From contig QEVR01000002.1 of NCBI GenBank assembly GCA_003576745.1, positions 175,884 to 239,883 of the forward strand: a stretch of DNA of 64,000 bases, written 5' to 3'. The DNA is from Candidatus Uhrbacteria bacterium. Its GTDB lineage: Bacteria > Patescibacteriota > Patescibacteriia > 2-12-FULL-60-25. This document shows, in pieces, positions 2,652-52,737 of the stretch. The notes beneath the pieces are model-generated. The model saw nothing but the letters and a program-made list of their open reading frames with translations. It was not told the origin of the DNA and made no database searches. Position 1 is the first letter of the stretch, and each line of letters begins with the position of its first letter. The translations under genes were made by a program, and so were the position numbers.

Positions 2652-3986
2652 CTAGAATGAGAATTTCTCGAAATGAATGCGTCCGGGACTCACGCCGAGC
2701 TCGCGCAAGGCCTTTCGCAATGACGCGAGCATGGGCGGCGGCCCGCAAAGATACGCTTCCCGATCGGCGATGTCGGGTACCAACCGCGATAGTTTGTCTG
2801 CGTCAATCGTTCCCTTCTCTCCCGGATGCTCCGGTTCATGGCTTAAAACGTAATGGAGAGGAAAACGGTATCGGGACGACAGATGGTCCAACTCTTTCCG
2901 AAAAATGATATCGTCCGATGTCTTGCTCCCATACACAAGCACTGCATCATTGCTTGGCGCAATCTGTTCGATGAGGGGGCGTATAGGCGTGATACCCACC
3001 CCGCCGGCGATAAACGCGTACTTCTTTCCGGGCGTCGGATCGGCAGTAAATACGCCATACGGGCCGTCCACGATCACGCGCGTTCCCGGCCTGAGATTGG
3101 GAATGGCGGACGTGAAATCTCCGGACTGTTTGATGGTGAACCGAAGCCGATTCCCTTCCGGGATGGCAGACAGCGAAAACGGATGCTCCTGCCACCAAAA
3201 ACCTTTTTGGAGAAAACGGAGGATGAAAAACTGGCCGGGCAATGCGCGGAAGCGCGATACATTACTGCCCTCGATCATGACGGAATTCGTATCATGCGTT
3301 TCGGGGACAATGCCGCTGACGCGGAAACGCTGCGTCCATGACTGCCGAACCGGTTTTGCGAAGCGGAACAAGAGCACATTACCGAAGACGAATATATACA
3401 ACCCGTACCAGTATGCGGTAAAGACCCCACTCTGCAGAAAGTCCCCGCCAAGCGGCAACTGGTGGAAAAAGGCCAGCCCGACCACGGCGTATGTGAGCAG
3501 ATGCGCGTAATACCATGTTTCATACTTCAAGCGCCGCCGCACAATGGCAATGGAAAGAAGAACCACGCCAATGAGGAGAATTACGGCAATGGCCGCCGCA
3601 AGCAGGCTTGCGTCTCCCGTCACGAGATGAACGAACTGTCGGAGAGGATTCGCTCGGACGAAATCCGCATACGCAAGCGTAATAAAGAGCGGATGCGCCA
3701 AGACAAACCCGAACGTGGCATATCCGTTCCACGCGTGCACGCGCGTAAGTTTATCCAGCCCAAAGAGACGTTCGATCCAAACGGCTCTGCCGATAAGCAT
3801 AAATTGCAGCAGAATGCCGGAAACCGCGAGGAGACCGAAAAGCCTCCCCAGCGCGAGCATCGACCCCGCAGCCATTCCGCGAAAGAGCGCTGAGGATCCT
3901 TGCCACCAAAACCATGCAATCACCAAAAAGTGTGCGGCCAAGAGGAGAATGACAGCGAATCCCCACATGCGATGACGCAAGTTCAT
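2652..3986 (-). CDS. ferric-reductase-like flavohaem oxidoreductase
   Basis: Membrane cytochrome b-type domain fused to a ferredoxin-reductase domain, 444 aa. Six or so membrane helices span residues 8-205. Candidate haem ligands are His84, His98, His162 and His175, in two pairs about 13 apart. The FAD site HPFSLS is at 268-273, the NAD(P) motif AGGVGITP around 327-334 and CGPPPM at 414-419. The family (FRE/NOX-like) passes electrons from NAD(P)H across the membrane to metal ions or oxygen; the acceptor is unknown here. It lies between a metal importer and a cupredoxin gene, which fits metal reduction. Confidence 0.85.
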   Translation of the reverse strand: MNLRHRMWGFAVILLLAAHFLVIAWFWWQGSSALFRGMAAGSMLALGRLFGLLAVSGILLQFMLIGRAVWIERLFGLDKLTRVHAWNGYATFGFVLAHPLFITLAYADFVRANPLRQFVHLVTGDASLLAAAIAVILLIGVVLLSIAIVRRRLKYETWYYAHLLTYAVVGLAFFHQLPLGGDFLQSGVFTAYWYGLYIFVFGNVLLFRFAKPVRQSWTQRFRVSGIVPETHDTNSVMIEGSNVSRFRALPGQFFILRFLQKGFWWQEHPFSLSAIPEGNRLRFTIKQSGDFTSAIPNLRPGTRVIVDGPYGVFTADPTPGKKYAFIAGGVGITPIRPLIEQIAPSNDAVLVYGSKTSDDIIFRKELDHLSSRYRFPLHYVLSHEPEHPGEKGTIDADKLSRLVPDIADREAYLCGPPPMLASLRKALRELGVSPGRIHFEKFSF

Positions 3987-4002
3987 AACTTGTGATTGGG
4001 AA

Positions 4003-4101
4003 AAAAGGGCTAAGGGAAACGGGTTATGGGTTATTGGTTACTACGGGGCGCATGGCTCACGGCGCATGGCCCAAGGCTCACGACTAACCCTCCCCACTCC
4101 C
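4003..4101. repeat. 99-bp inverted repeat, left arm
   Basis: Identical over 99 bp to the reverse complement of 6904-7002. It contains the words aagggctaaggg, ggttatgggttattgg and catggctcacggcgcatgg of the dispersed family. The cupredoxin gene reads into it from the other strand. Confidence 0.95.
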
Positions 4102-4603
4102 CCATCTGGCGGTGAGCGCCAACACTGCAGTAGTACTCGAAACTTCCCGCCTTATCGGCGACGAATTCCACGTCATACCTTTCGCCGGTCTTATTCGGAG
4201 CAAAGTCAACATTGAATTCATCGAGGACAAAATTATGAAAGCCCCCGGCATTCACGAAATGAATCTTGACCGTATCGCCTTTTTTCACGCGGATCTCATC
4301 CGGCGTGAACCAAAAATTTCCTCCTGCCACGTCGAATGTCAGGACCGTTGGCTCATGTAATGCCGCGCCGGCTTCAAGCTGCCTGGCCTGCACATCCGTG
4401 AGCTCCAAAGGTTCCGTGGGCGCCATTTGGCCATTCGGTTTTGGCGTATCATTCTCCGGCGTTGCGGAGGATTCGACGGCCGTCGGCGCATCTTCGGCCG
4501 GCGCGGCGGGCTGTTCGTTTGCCAAAGGCGCGCATCCGGCGCCGGTGATAAGCAAGGTTGAAATGGCGATCGAATGGACGATGCCATGGAACGGATTCTT
4601 CAT
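4031..4603 (-). CDS. cupredoxin-domain lipoprotein
   Basis: Small blue-copper-type protein, 190 aa from ATG 4603; an upstream in-frame ATG at 4681 would place extra residues before the signal sequence. Lipobox LITGAGC puts the lipidated Cys at residue 24, followed by a Pro/Ala/Glu-rich linker to about 70. The cupredoxin fold occupies about 85-178 with type-1 copper ligands His123 (GFHNF), Cys159, His164 and Met167 (CSVGAHRQM). Likely an extracytoplasmic electron carrier. Residues 168-190 and the stop are encoded entirely by one arm of the 99-bp inverted repeat; the first of them, GEWGGLVVS, resembles a normal final cupredoxin strand. Confidence 0.85.
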   Translation of the reverse strand: MKNPFHGIVHSIAISTLLITGAGCAPLANEQPAAPAEDAPTAVESSATPENDTPKPNGQMAPTEPLELTDVQARQLEAGAALHEPTVLTFDVAGGNFWFTPDEIRVKKGDTVKIHFVNAGGFHNFVLDEFNVDFAPNKTGERYDVEFVADKAGSFEYYCSVGAHRQMGEWGGLVVSLGPCAVSHAPRSNQ

Positions 4604-4884
4604 AGGAACGTGTATATGTTTAACGAATGAGTGACGAAAAAACGATCCCTTGTCGCACGGCTTTGAACTGTGCAAGGACATTTTTCTCGATAAGGTTGTA
4701 TCATGAAATCATCTCGTCTTCCATTCTGCAAGCATCGGAGATACTCCGCGGCAAACTATTCTGTTTGAAACGATACGTCTTCCGGCGGGAATCCCATGCG
4801 CCTCCCTCTGAACGGCCCGTTTCCAATGTACCATTCAGGCACATTCGGGATACGCTCTCAACGCATATTACCGTTCTGCCTTGA

Positions 4885-5370
4885 ATGCCCTTCACAGAAT
4901 CGTCTATGACACCTGCAAAATCCTCACTCCGTGTGCCATTTTTCCGCCAAAGAACGGAATACACCTGCGGCCCGCGCGCACTGCAGATGGTGTTGGCATA
5001 TTATGGAACCCGGGTGACAATCAGCGCTCTGCTGAAAATATGCAAGGCCAAAAAAAGTACAGGAACGGAAAGAAAGCATCTTATCGCCGCCGCCTCGTCG
5101 TTCGGATATCGCGTGCACGCAAAGAACGACTCGAACATTTCAGCCGTCTGCTCCTATGTCGCACGCGGCATACCGGTGATAGTGAATTACCGGCACATTT
5201 CTTCGGAGGGCCATTATGCCGTTGTCGTGGGATGCACCCGGACCGATCTGATATTGAATGATCCCTGGTATGGTGCGGGATGGCGCATTTCCAAACAGGA
5301 TTTTCTCAAACGGTGGTATGGCTACCATGTCAATAAACATACGCGCTGGATGATGGCCGTATATACATAA
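4885..5370 (+). CDS. C39-like cysteine peptidase domain protein
   Basis: Single-domain papain-like protein, 161 aa. The triad positions are visible: Cys28 in YTCGPRA, His110 in EGHYAVVVG and Asp126 in LNDPW. No transporter, leader peptide gene or signal peptide is near, so this is not a bacteriocin-exporting C39 transporter; stand-alone versions act on unknown substrates. An alternative start is at 4906. It lies within the 99-bp inverted-repeat segment. Confidence 0.7.
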   Translation: MPFTESSMTPAKSSLRVPFFRQRTEYTCGPRALQMVLAYYGTRVTISALLKICKAKKSTGTERKHLIAAASSFGYRVHAKNDSNISAVCSYVARGIPVIVNYRHISSEGHYAVVVGCTRTDLILNDPWYGAGWRISKQDFLKRWYGYHVNKHTRWMMAVYT

Positions 5371-5464
5371 AAACGCGGACGTATGCGTCCATGCCAGTTT
5401 TGAATCGATCCGCGGAAGGTCTTCTCGCTTGACAGATGCCGCCGACGCGTACATCAAACCACCA

Positions 5465-5473
5465 TGCTATGAT
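5465..5473 (+). promoter_or_regulatory. extended -10 box
   Basis: TGC followed by TATGAT, 16 nt before the ATG at 5490. No matching -35 was recognised. Confidence 0.45.
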
Positions 5474-5489
5474 GGGAGCTCGCGAACCT

Positions 5490-5903
5490 ATGGACGCATC
5501 GGCAATGGGGCGGCAATTCCTGACGCTCACGGCAAAAACTCTTCTTGCCGTCATGCTTTTTTTGACGCTGATCCTGGTAACGGCCCCGAACTGCCACATC
5601 CGGCACCCATCGAACGCCCATCAGCAATGGCAGCATTTGGCCTGTCACGCCGATAGCATCACGCTTCCGTTCCTGGATGTGGTGCATCTTTTCGGCAATA
5701 TGCATCTCCCGAATCTGGCGGAGCTCCTGCTCCTGCTTGTCGCCGCGGCCGCCATTGCCGTAGCGGGAGGCCGCAAGGAAAATGCCGAGCCTCCGAATAT
5801 CAGAATCCGCCACCGCCGACTCCGTTGGATTTGGGCCCGGCGTCTTCCATTTTCCGATCCTGCAACCAGTTTATTTTATTTTGTGGCACAACGCGATGCG
5901 TGA
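5490..5903 (+). CDS. small His/Cys-rich membrane protein
   Basis: Not recognised. From ATG 5490 it gives 137 aa with two membrane helices (about 10-32 and 76-94). Between them is a short loop unusually rich in metal-ligand residues: Cys35, His36, His39, His44, His49, Cys52, His53, then His66 and His72. The C-terminal tail is basic. Starts at 5436, 5469 or 5505 are also possible. Its place between a C39-like gene and dsbA, close to a cupredoxin, suggests a metal or redox role, but that is inference. It ends 49 nt before dsbA. Confidence 0.55.
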   Translation: MDASAMGRQFLTLTAKTLLAVMLFLTLILVTAPNCHIRHPSNAHQQWQHLACHADSITLPFLDVVHLFGNMHLPNLAELLLLLVAAAAIAVAGGRKENAEPPNIRIRHRRLRWIWARRLPFSDPATSLFYFVAQRDA

Positions 5904-5952
5904 CCTCGTCCCGCGTTTGATTCTTCCAATTCGTTATTCCTCATCAGACGAT

Positions 5953-6732
5953 ATGTCATTGTTATCTCAAAAACCTATGCCACAACAGTCTTTTCTCGAC
6001 TCCATGCCGCCCAAACAAAGTTTTTACTTCGGTCTTATTTCGGGCATTGGCGGCATGGCAATCGCCGGTCTCCTCTTTACCATGACGGGAGGATTCGCCT
6101 CCGGTGGATCCCCGCTCGCCAAGGCAACTGCGCCCTCGGCGCCGAGCCCGACCGCTGCAGCGCTCGCGCCCTCGCCCACACCCTCGCCCACACCCACTGC
6201 CGCGGACATGCCGCCCGTAACAGATGCGGACTGGGTGCGCGGAGACGTGAATAAAGCGCAAGTGGTTCTCGTCGAATATTCCGATTACGAATGTCCGTTC
6301 TGCCAGCGCCATCATCCGACCATGCAGAAAATCATGCAGGACTACGGAGACAAAGTCGCCTGGGTATACCGCCACTTCCCGCTCACAAGTATTCACCCGC
6401 AGGCTAATCCGGCGGCGCTTGCCGCAGAGTGCGTCGGCGAGCAAAAAGGGAATGACGGCTTCTGGAAATTTACGGACGCCATGTTCGATAACCAGGATCA
6501 GCTCGGCGATACCTTCTATGAACAGACGGCGAAATCGCTTGGCGTAAATGTCGACACATATACGTCCTGCTACACCTCCAAAAAGTACGCTCAAAAAGTT
6601 AGCGAACAATACAATGGAGGCGGAGCCGCGGGCGTATCAGGCACGCCGGCAACCTTCGTGAACGGCCAGCTCGTATCCGGGGCTGTCCCCTATGAGCAGT
6701 TCCGGTCAATCATCGATTCGATCTTGAACTAA
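5953..6732 (+). CDS. DsbA-family thiol oxidoreductase, membrane-anchored
   Basis: Thioredoxin-fold protein, 259 aa from ATG 5953; an upstream in-frame ATG at 5782 would overlap the previous gene. One membrane anchor (about 23-46), a Pro/Ala/Ser/Thr linker to about 85, then the DsbA domain with active site CPFC (Cys114, Cys117) and cis-proline loop SGTPATF (Pro222). It probably forms or exchanges disulfides outside the membrane, useful for the many Cys-rich exported proteins in this window. Followed by a strong terminator. Confidence 0.9.
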   Translation: MSLLSQKPMPQQSFLDSMPPKQSFYFGLISGIGGMAIAGLLFTMTGGFASGGSPLAKATAPSAPSPTAAALAPSPTPSPTPTAADMPPVTDADWVRGDVNKAQVVLVEYSDYECPFCQRHHPTMQKIMQDYGDKVAWVYRHFPLTSIHPQANPAALAAECVGEQKGNDGFWKFTDAMFDNQDQLGDTFYEQTAKSLGVNVDTYTSCYTSKKYAQKVSEQYNGGGAAGVSGTPATFVNGQLVSGAVPYEQFRSIIDSILN

Positions 6733-6741
6733 CCAAGCCGC

Positions 6742-6771
6742 AAAACGCCTCCACGTCACGGGGGCGTTTTT
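6742..6771 (+). terminator. terminator after dsbA
   Basis: Stem aaaacgcctcc/gggggcgtttt (one G-T pair) with loop acgtcac, then further T. Confidence 0.85.
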
Positions 6772-6784
6772 GCGTTGGACGTGG

Positions 6785-7045
6785 GAGAATTGGGAAGTAG
6801 GGAGTTGGTCGTGAGCCTTGGACCTTGGGCCATGCGGTATACGGGATGCACCATGCGGTATGCGGAAAGAGTACGTAGGACGTGGTGCGTAGGATGCGGA
6901 ATAGGGAGTGGGGAGGGTTAGTCGTGAGCCTTGGGCCATGCGCCGTGAGCCATGCGCCCCGTAGTAACCAATAACCCATAACCCGTTTCCCTTAGCCCTT
7001 TTCCCCGCAACCCGCTCACCGCATTCCGCCCTCTCCTCCCTACCT
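6785..7045. repeat. dispersed word repeat with right arm of the 99-bp inverted repeat
   Basis: Reverse-oriented words (cgtgagccttgggccatgcg, gtacgtaggacg). 6904-7002 is the perfect reverse complement of 4003-4101. No gene is present from 6733 to 7124 apart from the terminator and a promoter box at 7055. Confidence 0.9.
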
Positions 7046-7054
7046 CCCCGAACC

Positions 7055-7063
7055 TGCTATACT
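7055..7063 (+). promoter_or_regulatory. extended -10 box at the repeat edge
   Basis: TGC TATACT within gaacctgctatact. The same 14 bases occur at the edge of another repeat copy upstream of the gene at 15850. Confidence 0.5.
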
Positions 7064-7124
7064 TCAAACGAACGCCCGATTCTTCGCGGATTCGGGGATA
7101 TCATTCATTAGTATTGCCCTTCAT

Positions 7125-11934: not shown

Positions 11935-12290
11935 GGCTAAGGGTACAAGTGAGCGGTGAGTAGTAAGTGGGATTTTTAATTATGCGTTATGGGCGCATAA
12001 CTCACGACTTACGAACTTACGAACCTACTGATTTACAGACCTACGGACTTTCAGACACAAGAGCTAAGGACTGCGGGTTTCGGGCGCATGACGCAAGGCG
12101 CACGGCGCATACCTCACCCCCTACGCTCTACATCCTACGCCCTTCTCCCTCCTCCCGTGTGACTCACGACCCATACCTCACGACTCACGCCCTACGGACC
12201 TACTGACTTACAGACCTACGATCTTACAGACCCACGAACCTACGGACCCGCTCGGGTTTCGGGCGCACGGCGCACGGCGTCTCCCGCAAC
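11935..12290. repeat. dispersed word repeat, longest clean copy
   Basis: About 350 bp of tandem-like words with a spacing near 10 bp: acgaacctac, ggacttacag, acctacgatc, ttacagaccc. It also holds the gagtagtaagtgg and gggtttcgggcgca modules. It fills the gap between cfa and the next gene. No coding, tRNA or CRISPR structure is seen. Confidence 0.9.
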
Positions 12291-15694: not shown

Positions 15695-15800
15695 TCGAGG
15701 TTGCGTTCGTAAGTCCGTAGGTCTGTAGATCTGTAAGTCCGTAGGTCGTGTGGCATGGGTCGTGCGATCGAAACCTGTAACCACTCACCACGAACCTGCT
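15695..15800. repeat. dispersed word repeat, reverse orientation
   Basis: Words gtaagtccgtaggtctgtag and gtccgtaggtcgtg, the reverse complement of the acctacggacttac module, ending in accactcaccacgaacc. Confidence 0.85.
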
Positions 15801-15805
15801 ATACT
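15797..15805 (+). promoter_or_regulatory. extended -10 box at the repeat edge
   Basis: TGC TATACT, 44 nt before the ATG at 15850. The sequence gaacctgctatact is shared with 7051-7063. Confidence 0.5.
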
Positions 15806-17829: not shown

Positions 17830-17965
17830 CAAGGGGAACACGTGAATGGTTCGTGGTGAGTGGTTACGGGTTTCGAGCGCACGACACATGCCTCACGACC
17901 TACGGACTTACGAACCTACGGACCCGTTCGGGTTATTGGTTTCGGGCGCACGGCTTATGGCCGCC
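17830..17965. repeat. dispersed word repeat
   Basis: Words gtgagtggttacgggtttcg, cctacggacttacgaacc and tttcgggcgcacggcttatgg, ending a few bases before the cls promoter. Confidence 0.85.
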
Positions 17966-17980: not shown

Positions 17981-19414
17981 ATGGATATTTTCCTCTGGGC
18001 GGCGACGCACGCGGGAACGGCAGCGGCAATTCTCTTTATCCTCAACCTCTGTTTTGTCGGAGTCGTTTTGTTGCTGGAAAATCGCGAACCGGAAAAATCC
18101 ATCGGGTGGCTCTTGGCGCTTATCGCTTTTCCGATTATCGGTTTCATCCTCTACCTATTCTTCGGCCATAATTGGCATAAACAAACATACCAGGATCGAC
18201 GGCTCGTGCATTACGCCATGAATGAACGCAAGCGCATGGCAGAGGAAGATGCCGGGCAAGTATCCGATCCTCAGGCTGCCGCTTTCCATTACTTCGCAAC
18301 GAACGCGTCGGGTTTTCGACTGACCAAGGGCAATGCGGTCCGCATTCTCACGGACGCTCATGAAAAATATGCAAGGATGTTCGCGGAACTTCGCAAAGCA
18401 AAAACAAGCATCGATGTGGAGTATTTTATTTTCCGTTATGACCGTACAGGGCTAGAGATGATCAATATTTTAAAACAAAAAGCGAAAGAGGGCGTTCGCG
18501 TTCGATTTCTCGTTGACGGAATGGGTAGTTTGGGATTCGGTCGAAAAGCGTTTTCGGATATGCGCGCCGCCGGCATTCAGGCGCATTACTTTGCCCCGTT
18601 GATTACGATTTTCTTTTTTTTCAAGGCGAATTATCGCGATCACAGAAAAATCGTCGTGATCGACAATGAAATTGCGTACACGGGCGGCATCAATATTGGC
18701 AATGAGTATCTCGGCGAAAGCCGAAAAGGATTTTGGCGCGACACCTCACTGGAACTTCGCGGACCATGCGTCAGGCAATTTGCCGAATTATTCCAGGAAG
18801 CATGGGGCAGAACCGTCGGTTCTTCGGCAAAGCCGGATCTTCCGCGCCCAAAGCATCAACCGGAACAGGAAACGGTTAGCGTCATTCCCAGCGGCCCGGA
18901 TACAGACTGGCTTGCTATCCATCAGCTCTACCTTGCCATGATCCACGGCGCAAGAACGCGCATACGCATTCAGACGCCGTATTTTATTCCGGACGAAAGC
19001 ATTCATGCCGCCCTGTTAAATGCGGCGTTGCGCGGCGTGGATGTGCAAATTATGCTCCCCAGAAATCCCGATTATGCCTATCTCCGCTGGGTTGCGAATA
19101 CGTATCTCGAAGAAATTCTGCGGGCGGGAGGGCGCGTATTCGAATACGTGAACGGGTTCCTCCATCCGAAAGTTATTCTCGTGGATGATCGGATTGCCAC
19201 GATCGGCACCTGCAACATCGACATACGCAGTTTTCGCCTCGACTTTGAAGTGAACATCCTGACAAGCGGGTCAAAAACCGTAAGGCATTTGTTGGAAGAT
19301 TTCGAGCACGACCTCGGGAACTGCGAAGAAATCGACTATCTCGAATTCATCGACCGGCCTCTCGGCAAGCGCATAAAGGAATCCGTCGCCCGCCTCATCG
19401 CGCCTCTGCTGTAG
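17981..19414 (+). CDS. cls: cardiolipin synthase (phospholipase D family)
   Basis: Condenses phosphatidylglycerol molecules into cardiolipin. 477 aa, normal length. Two N-terminal membrane helices (about 10-30, 40-58) are followed by two PLD domains with HKD motifs: HRKIVVIDNEIAYTGG near 221-236 and HPKVILVDDRIATIGT near 393-408. Forms a lipid cluster with the glycosyltransferase 33 nt downstream. Confidence 0.93.
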   Translation: MDIFLWAATHAGTAAAILFILNLCFVGVVLLLENREPEKSIGWLLALIAFPIIGFILYLFFGHNWHKQTYQDRRLVHYAMNERKRMAEEDAGQVSDPQAAAFHYFATNASGFRLTKGNAVRILTDAHEKYARMFAELRKAKTSIDVEYFIFRYDRTGLEMINILKQKAKEGVRVRFLVDGMGSLGFGRKAFSDMRAAGIQAHYFAPLITIFFFFKANYRDHRKIVVIDNEIAYTGGINIGNEYLGESRKGFWRDTSLELRGPCVRQFAELFQEAWGRTVGSSAKPDLPRPKHQPEQETVSVIPSGPDTDWLAIHQLYLAMIHGARTRIRIQTPYFIPDESIHAALLNAALRGVDVQIMLPRNPDYAYLRWVANTYLEEILRAGGRVFEYVNGFLHPKVILVDDRIATIGTCNIDIRSFRLDFEVNILTSGSKTVRHLLEDFEHDLGNCEEIDYLEFIDRPLGKRIKESVARLIAPLL

Positions 19415-28867: not shown

Positions 28868-28959
28868 ACCGTATAGAACAAATTTAGAACGGGCGACCGG
28901 AAAAAGCAACTGCCTGACGGCGCGAGGGTTACGGGGAAGATTACAGATGATGGCTTTTG

Positions 28960-29215
28960 GCAATTGGTGAAAAGGAACAAGCGAGTAGTGAGTGGTTACA
29001 GGTTTCGGGCGCAAGGCTCACGGCGCATGGACTTTGCACCCTCTACGCCCTACGTCCTACGCAACTCCACCATGGCTCACGACCCATACCTCTCGACCTA
29101 CGTCCTACGCAACCACGTCCTGCGTACTCTTTTCGCATCCCGCAACCCGCATACCGTATGGCGCAAGGCTCACGGCTCACGGCCACCCCTCCACTCCCCA
29201 CTCCCCAATCTTGCG
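28960..29215. repeat. dispersed word repeat
   Basis: Plus-oriented modules gcgagtagtgagtggttacag, ggctcacggcgcatgg, ccctacgtcctacgcaac and cgcatcccgcaacccgcat. The gap 28868-29225 between uppS and rarA contains nothing else recognisable. Confidence 0.85.
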
Positions 29216-40079: not shown

Positions 40080-40430
40080 GGGGGCAAAACTCGGCAGAGA
40101 GGCGATGGCAACTCATATTACGGGTCTCGAGTTACGCGTCTAGGATAAAACCACTTACCTACAAACCTACGGTCTTACGGACCTACGAACGTACTGGCCA
40201 AGGGCAAAGGGTTAAGGGCAAAGGGAACGGGGATCGGGTTTAGGATGAACAGCACATCCTACAAACCTACGGTTTTACGGACCTACGATTCTACAGACCT
40301 AGGGCAAAGGGCAATTATGTTCCCCCTACGCAACCACGCAACTACGTCCTACGTACTCTTCGCATCCCGCATACCGCATGACCCAAGGCTCATGGCCCAC
40401 GGCCAACCTCCCCCACTCCCGAATACAATA
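40080..40430. repeat. dispersed word repeat, two blocks
   Basis: Fills almost all of 40015-40457: cctacggtcttacggacc, aagggttaagggcaaaggg, ctacgtcctacgtactcttc, ccgcataccgcatgacccaagg and ggcccacggccaacc. Nothing else is seen in the gap. Confidence 0.88.
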
Positions 40431-47822: not shown

Positions 47823-47909
47823 AGGACAGACTGTATCGCAGTGTAGCAGATGGGTAAGGCGGAAGGTAATGATTCGTATTCAAGAGAGTCAGAGTTTTAG
47901 CGTAGTGGG

Positions 47910-48110
47910 GTAGGTGCAATAAGCAAAAGGGCTAAGGGAACAAGTGAGTGGTGAGTGGTTTAGAGGAAAAGCATGCACCTCCTACCTCCTATGCCCTACT
48001 CCCTTTGTCCCATGACCTACGAACTTACAGACACAAGAGCTGAGGACTACGGGTATCGGGTTACGGGTTTCGGGACGCATGGCAATGGCTCACGGCCAAC
48101 CCCCCCCTGC
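47910..48110. repeat. dispersed word repeat, left copy flanking the MopE unit
   Basis: Includes the 41-nt stretch 47951-47991 that is perfectly inverted at 52018-52058, then cctacgaacttacagac and acaagagctgaggactacgg. The gap 47823-48239 contains only this and a terminator. Confidence 0.9.
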
Positions 48111-51789: not shown

Positions 51790-52150
51790 TGGATACGTTA
51801 GGGAGTTGGAAGTAGGTCGTGAGTCGTGTGGTGGTGGGGAGTAGGAGTGCGTAGGACGTAGGTCTGTAGGTCGTGCGGACGGGATGTGCCTTGCGCCGTG
51901 CGGTATGCGCCCGAAACCCGTACCCCGAGACCCGAGCGGTCAGTAGGTTCGTAAGTCCGTAAGTCTATAAGTTCGTAGGTTATGGGACAAAGGGAGTAGG
52001 AAGTGGGAAGTAGGGCGTAGGAGGTAGGAGGTGCATGCTTTTCCTCTAAACCACTCACTTGGTCCCTTCATAGGACAAAGGGAGCAGGACGTGAGTCATG
52101 AGTCATGCGCCAAAAACCCGTAACCCAAAACTCATAACCTGCTCATTACC
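51790..52150. repeat. dispersed word repeat, right copy flanking the MopE unit
   Basis: Mostly reverse orientation (gtgcgtaggacgtagg, gtaagtccgtaagtc, gtaggaggtaggaggtgc). 52018-52058 is the perfect reverse complement of 47951-47991; similarity continues to about 51965 with a 12-nt insertion. Apart from a promoter and terminator the gap 51545-52257 is this repeat. Confidence 0.9.
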
Positions 52151-52257: not shown

Positions 52258-52737
52258 TTACTTGTTGCCGGCCACCTGCTCCGCCGGCTTGCACTGACAG
52301 GCGCAAAGGTCGACCTCGTCGCCGACCGGCTTGATCTTTCCGCCGCCGGAACAGTCCAGAACCTCGCCGCCCGCCGTGATCTCATCCGTTCCCTTCATGT
52401 TACTCATGAAGTATGACCACGAAACCTTGCGGCAGTCCTGGATTTCTGCACATGGGCGGGCGAACTCGTTGGGCTTTCCCGTTGGTTCGACGACGGATGC
52501 CGCCGGCGCACTTGCTGATGGATCCGCCTTGGGCTTTTCCGTTGGTTCGACGACGGATGCCGCCGGCGGATCGACTGGTGCGGCCGATGTTCCGGACGAG
52601 CCCATGCGGTAGCCGACGTACAAGGCGACGACGGCGATCACGGAGCAGACGGAAAAGGCGAGAAACGCCTTTACCCCATTCGAGAGGCGTGCGGTCGCTT
52701 GCTGACCCGGCCCCTCCTGATGAGCATGTTCTGTCAT
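52258..52737 (-). CDS. small membrane-anchored Cys protein
   Basis: 159 aa. One membrane helix (about 23-45) ending GYRMGSS, then a linker with a duplicated AASVVEPTxKP unit from a 60-bp tandem DNA repeat. The C-terminal 70 residues form a compact domain with six Cys (PCAEIQDCRKVSW, LDCSGGG, LCACQCKP), probably disulfide-bonded. Family unknown. Third gene of unit 2, with AAAGGA upstream of its ATG. Confidence 0.72.
   Translation of the reverse strand: MTEHAHQEGPGQQATARLSNGVKAFLAFSVCSVIAVVALYVGYRMGSSGTSAAPVDPPAASVVEPTEKPKADPSASAPAASVVEPTGKPNEFARPCAEIQDCRKVSWSYFMSNMKGTDEITAGGEVLDCSGGGKIKPVGDEVDLCACQCKPAEQVAGNK

Follow-up and report, generated by a model that had tools for sequence, protein, structure and literature searches.

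The perfect 99-bp inverted repeat at positions 4003-4101 and 6904-7002 of the window (the whole 64,000-nucleotide stretch of DNA analyzed here) most probably consists of two members, close together and in opposite orientations, of a dispersed intergenic repeat family, a reading to which we give a probability of about 0.8. The arms had been read from the sequence alone as the dedicated boundary of a 2.8-kb redox segment; they are instead two of about 211 such elements, which cover 37,014 bp (3.5%) of the 1.06-Mb genome and make up about 21% of all non-coding bases. A single repeat family with strict polarity can take up a fifth of the non-coding DNA of a small genome, and this polarity is tied to the direction of replication, not to genes.

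The inverted repeat and the genes around it

The two arms are reverse complements at 99 of 99 positions, as the sequence-only reading had said, and these inverted identical arms flank a spacer of 2802 nt. A chance match of this length is impossible, yet related sequence abounds in the genome. Across its 4 contigs (1,064,618 bases, 97% complete) there are 47 matches to the arm at E ≤ 1e-3, and the 64-kb window alone contains 12 inverted repeat pairs as well as 18 families of direct repeats, most of them of the arm type. Ranked by alignment score, the arm pair comes only about 29th among the repeat pairs of the genome, where pairs of 110-240 bp at 90-97% identity are common and many are longer than the arm pair. 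The arms and their parent elements comprise the following features:

4003-4101, + strand: left arm in canonical orientation, running from G-rich heptads (AAAAGGGCTAAGGGAAACGGG) through GCGCATGG/CTCACGG heptads to CCCTCCCCACTCCC; exact reverse complement of 6904-7002
6904-7002, - strand: right arm, the same 99 bases in opposite orientation; exact reverse complement of 4003-4101
about 6791-7098, - strand: whole right-hand repeat element holding the right arm, from the k-mer element census and its flanks
3998-4023, + strand: G-quadruplex-type motif, (G3N1-7)x4, at the head of the left element
6989-7013, - strand: G-quadruplex-type motif spanning the outer end of the right arm

Both arms follow the module order of the family. 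The left arm makes up nearly all of its element, and repeat-like sequence extends beyond both ends of the right arm within the right-hand element. Of the four flanks, only two look typical of the family: the one at the head of the left copy and the one at the tail of the right copy. This pattern may be a weak hint of exchange, as expected from a swap by recombination or by the assembler.

The genes beside and between the arms are listed below:

2652-3986, - strand: ferric-reductase-like/FAD/NAD oxidoreductase (Pfam Ferric_reduct, FAD_binding_8 and NAD_binding_1)
4031-4681, - strand: cupredoxin (plastocyanin/azurin-type) open reading frame (Pfam Copper-bind, 2.9e-7)
4885-5370, + strand: peptidase C39-like protein (Pfam)
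5436-5903, + strand: His/Cys-containing membrane-type open reading frame without a Pfam family
6004-6732, + strand: DsbA/thioredoxin-4 protein (Pfam)

The gene content first proposed for the segment is correct except that the cupredoxin gene does not lie wholly between the arms, its 3' end being inside the left arm. In the in-frame translation of the arm, the last codons of this gene (from GEWGGLVVSLG... on) and its TAA stop (4031-4033) are left-arm sequence, and the resulting C-terminus fits its protein family (compare the GMKGTMIVQ end in G019). The overlap would be tolerated since translation of the arm still yields an acceptable final beta strand (GEWGGLVV). The start codon of the oxidoreductase is located about 17 bp from the left arm. 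By their Pfam assignments, the proteins encoded within and beside the segment include no dedicated recombinase.

A family of heptad-periodic intergenic elements

For the element census, intergenic-enriched 11-mers were collected and the family was delimited by k-mer rules. Genes were called with a rough home-made gene finder (940 genes, 83% coding), hence the element counts are approximate. The elements are mostly intergenic in 205 of 211 cases and have a median length of 169 bp. Other family members in the window are the following:

11994-12274, + strand: family member
15705-15805, - strand: family member
28925-29207, + strand: family member
40158-40420, + strand: family member
47890-48101, + strand: family member
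51812-52141, - strand: family member

Positions 15720-15796 form an inverted pair with 17848-17924 (77 bp, 90%), as do positions 47951-48003 with 52006-52058 (53 bp, 96%).

Family members are degenerate quasi-tandem arrays of 7-nt, partly 8-nt, units with modules in a fixed order. Self-match at a lag of 7 nt reaches 0.456 in the elements, compared with 0.273 in other intergenic DNA and 0.248 in genes; additional peaks occur at lags 14, 21 and 28, and self-match at lag 8 is 34.6%. With this 7-nt periodicity in dispersed intergenic arrays, the family belongs among the heptameric repeats. Its heptads vary (AAAGGGC, TTACGGG, CGCATGG, CTCACGG, CCTACGC, CCCTACT) and are accompanied by octads (CCTACGGA/CTTACGAA); units differ both between and within modules, and no near-uniform unit such as GGGNATC was found. 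On one strand, the modules run from TTGG-type and GGG heptads to octads, CATGG/CACGG heptads or a GGGGAG-CTCCCC stem, then to CTACG heptads and finally to CCCTACTCCC. This order is nearly invariant: G-heptads precede CCTACGC heptads in 69 of 69 cases and CCCTACTCCC in 51 of 51, and a further main module pair keeps its order in 29 of 29. The elements have no conserved palindromic stem-loop unit, since folding z-scores are near 0 and a 16-nt palindromic core is present in only 12 of 211. A search of the window against Rfam matched tRNAs and tmRNA only.

Other repeats were also observed. A pair of about 350 bp and 91% identity (C2 237150-237501 and scaffold C3 275489-275836 of the assembly) lies outside the heptad family; parts of it recur near C3 278540, and it is possibly another repeat or a mobile element. 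The window also contains a 60-bp tandem duplication at 52469-52568 (40 nt at 98%) and a CAGTCGTCGTCC-type coding sequence repeated around 48.7-53.8 kb.

Element orientation follows the replication strand

Among gaps of at least 100 bp, co-directional, divergent and convergent ones hold elements in proportion to their numbers, and 39 of the 211 elements lie between divergent genes, as expected from gap numbers. The median distance of elements is 18 bp to gene 3' ends and 72 bp to gene starts, and 50 gene 3' ends fall inside elements against one gene start. Where the coding GC skew is positive, elements are in the '-' orientation in 90 of 125 cases; where it is negative, they are in the '+' orientation in 68 of 86 (p = 2.3e-13), an association with odds of about 10 to 1. 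Within the two skew classes, gene direction had no effect on element orientation (p = 0.72 and 0.50). Element orientation follows the sign of the coding GC skew and therefore the replication strand, not transcription.

The elements also concentrate the G-quadruplex motifs of the genome: 116 of 163 (71%) are located in elements, 98 of these 116 on the canonical strand. A canonical-strand motif is present in 84 of 211 elements, which gives the family a predicted G-quadruplex potential.

The arm length coincides with the overlap length of the assembly

The longest maximal exact repeats genome-wide are five pairs of exactly 99 bp, with none longer, and two of these five pairs are contig ends. C3 contains a 10-N gap; the 99 bases that precede it are identical to the end of C2, and the 99 that follow it, which form the start of the window, are identical to the first 99 of C3:

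1-99, + strand: de Bruijn contig-overlap signature; first 99 bases after the 10-N gap, identical to the first 99 of scaffold C3

Three internal exact 99-bp repeats were observed, where the tail of shorter repeats predicts 0.11 (p = 2e-4). Contigs from metaSPAdes, MEGAHIT and IDBA_UD overlap at their ends by the maximal k-mer length (metaSPAdes, MEGAHIT) or this length minus one (IDBA_UD), which is 99 bp at common settings (PMC10914622). The arm length of 99 is technical, as from a de Bruijn assembly with k = 99 or 100, and a genuine exact 99-bp repeat would look identical. Since exact repeats and contig-end overlaps all stop at 99, the assembly could hardly show a longer exact repeat. The joins at the 99-mer of the arm presumably fell on an ambiguous node, and a segment that ends on each side in this 99-mer, in opposite orientations, fits either way round without contradiction. 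The assembly fixes neither the true length of the arms nor the direction of the 2.8-kb segment. Because 99 is the contig-overlap length of the assembly and the longest exact repeats pile up at this value, the perfection and length of the arms carry no special meaning. A perfect inverted repeat as long as the assembler overlap is no sound basis for inferring recent conversion or a switch.

The two other internal exact 99-bp repeats (C2 90059-90157/91298-91396 and C3 136053-136151/159426-159524) are possibly assembly joins at shared 99-mers, like the arm pair. The window starts with a contig start after the 10-N gap at scaffold C3 175,874-175,883, and the sequence preceding the gap is the end of a repeat element. 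Comparison with other elements suggests that perhaps just one base is missing from the middle of this element (GGCATGC/GCGCCC palindrome).

Distribution of the repeat and of the segment genes in relatives

The size of the genome and its relatives suggest a Patescibacteria-like lineage of small genomes. The arm had no match in 56 other genomes, of which 35 belong to the same family and three to the same genus. A search of 379 other genomes of the class with the core consensus gave a single 24-nt heptad match, and the exact 21-mer core was absent from GTDB r220 and IMG/VR, where near records may be left out. The 24-nt match and three others are short heptad arrays between genes, some forming hairpins (GTTACGGGTTACGGGTTACGGG and similar). 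Short intergenic heptad arrays, often inverted hairpins (TTACGGG, GGATGTA, ACTACGN), were seen at L136, L137, L138, L082 (about 1500-1570) and L098 (about 18,590-18,700). Such short arrays are not limited to the same family: other families have them too, as does another class of the phylum. Heptad arrays occur elsewhere, then, and the long, oriented, composite family appears to be confined to this genome among those searched.

A comparison with relatives had been suggested as a check on the segment, and neither of its orientations was found there. Around the oxidoreductase, cupredoxin, dsbA and CofD genes, relatives show no conserved gene order. The cupredoxin has a match in 5 of 40 other genomes of the family, with no shared gene order, and at the oxidoreductase loci of eight relatives no conserved gene order indicated the orientation of the segment.

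Alternative explanations

The left arm, or the join at it, could be an assembly artefact, with contigs sharing a 99-bp end wrongly joined. The pile-up of exact match lengths at 99 and the contig ends that share exactly 99 bases are consistent with this, and the left copy barely exceeds the 99-mer and on one side borders directly on coding sequence. However, its other flank (TTGTGATTGGGAA) is typical of the heads of other elements, family members often overlap gene 3' ends (50 cases), and the arm encodes a cupredoxin C-terminus that fits the protein family; we consider an artefact unlikely, though worth keeping in mind. Perfect homology over 99 bp could serve homologous recombination. RecA-type recombination between the arms would flip the 2.8-kb segment and swap the genes downstream of cupredoxin and dsbA, and the arms are indeed inverted, exact and long enough, with flanks that hint at an exchange (left head and right tail typical, the other two not). 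We judge this the least probable of the explanations considered here. The cupredoxin protein would be unchanged by inversion because its open reading frame ends inside the arm, and inversion would swap only what lies downstream; moreover, many similar repeat pairs exist genome-wide, the gene order of the segment is found in neither orientation in any relative, the arm length equals the k limit of the assembly and no recombinase gene adjoins. Inversion of the segment is possible but unproven, and a dedicated switch, of which there is no sign, is unsupported.

Other explanations concern the family as a whole. Movement of the elements by a transposase, as non-autonomous REP/BIME- or MITE-type transposons, would account for hundreds of dispersed copies and for a replication-strand bias, as for single-strand transposons, and the palindromic core of 12 elements also points that way. 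We regard it as quite improbable, since copies are periodic mosaics and not units with constant ends. A transposase-driven REP family was rejected because no Y1_Tnp (RAYT) domain was detected in the 97%-complete genome, while control genomes gave matches, and a retro-element was rejected because the genome has no reverse transcriptase. Less probable again are intrinsic terminators or structured RNAs after genes, the arm pair being two terminators. Their proximity to gene 3' ends, the short GGGGAG..CTCCCC stem of some elements and the hairpins formed by heptad arrays of other genomes would fit such a role, but folding of the elements hardly beats that of shuffled sequence (mean z -0.28 and -0.72 for the two strands; +0.39 for the arm), the number of elements between divergent genes is what gap numbers predict, and element orientation ignores transcription. 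With fold z-scores near 0, identity with a structured RNA or terminator was rejected.

Plausible local copying between neighbouring elements

Exact stretches of at least 45 bp are common to 11 of 454 pairs less than 10 kb apart (2.4%) versus 68 of 21,701 distant pairs (0.3%; p = 6e-7). The effect of proximity is still seen without the arm pair (p = 4e-6), and neighbours share such stretches about 8 times more often than distant pairs. Among near pairs, an excess of inverted over direct ones was not significant (7/178 versus 4/276, p = 0.12). Local copying or conversion between neighbouring members is plausible, and the arm sequences support the view that the two are homologous and related by one of these processes. 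The earlier proposal of recent copying or gene conversion may still be right, as neighbours share more exact stretches, although perfection over 99 bases is no proof of it.

Judging from orientation and distance only, short-range copying or gene conversion would both spread the members and keep them alike, probably while one strand is single at the replication fork. As for the arm pair, the left copy would be a piece of the right-hand element, or both would come from a common source, and it would have come to overlap the 3' end of the cupredoxin gene. The present orientation of the 2.8-kb segment would be the choice of the assembler or scaffolder at the shared 99-mer, and may or may not be real or the only one. 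No enzyme for the spread of elements was identified, the genome having neither a Y1/RAYT transposase nor a reverse transcriptase. A speculative extension, which we hold to be rather doubtful, is that these small genomes harbour an undescribed class of intergenic DNA: heptad-periodic composites spread by a replication-linked, transposase-free process, e.g., template switching at forks. Such a process would orient the elements by strand, homogenise them locally and enable them to rewrite the 3' ends of genes, and their seeds would be the short heptad hairpins of other families and of another class of the phylum.

Comparison with known repeat systems

Literature searches returned no description of this repeat, nor of such repeats in these bacteria, and the family appears to be unpublished and undescribed. 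Invertible phase-variation segments consist of inverted identical arms around a gene segment. The segment studied here is alike in this arrangement, but no recombinase adjoins it, no reading frame is switched and the arms are a genome-wide repeat. The STRR heptamers of cyanobacteria are heptamer direct repeats located between genes at many loci. TAACTGA heptamers are intergenic direct repeats of Beggiatoaceae, Cyanobacteria and Bacteroidetes, which form uniform arrays and in the type genome lie mostly just before start codons (PMC4679880). The present family resembles both STRR and TAACTGA repeats as heptamer direct repeats, intergenic, at many loci and with no known propagation mechanism; unlike in the TAACTGA repeats, its units vary and gene starts are avoided, and it also departs from them in its composite build and in an orientation set by the replication strand. 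With REP/BIME elements and their RAYT transposases (PMC2817692) it shares hundreds of short intergenic mosaic repeats in both orientations, but it has no RAYT/Y1 transposase, no strong stem-loop, and heptad periodicity instead of palindromes. Heptamer repeats are known in cyanobacteria and other bacteria without a mechanism, and if the polarity holds in related strains, this family would offer a tractable case for how they arise and spread.

The closest known kind is the heptad repeats of Xanthomonas and Nostoc. These G-quadruplex repeats (GGGNATC and GGGGA(C/T)T) have one unit type per array, a preferred number of four units, and are under-represented between divergent genes (PMC4692102). The present elements are similar in having a 7-nt period with a G-tract every 7 nt and a genome-wide, mostly intergenic distribution, and in lying near or overlapping stop codons without being tied to mobile elements. 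They differ in that several degenerate unit types follow one another in fixed order, with 8-nt stretches as well, that they are present in proportion between divergent genes, and that their orientation follows the replication strand.
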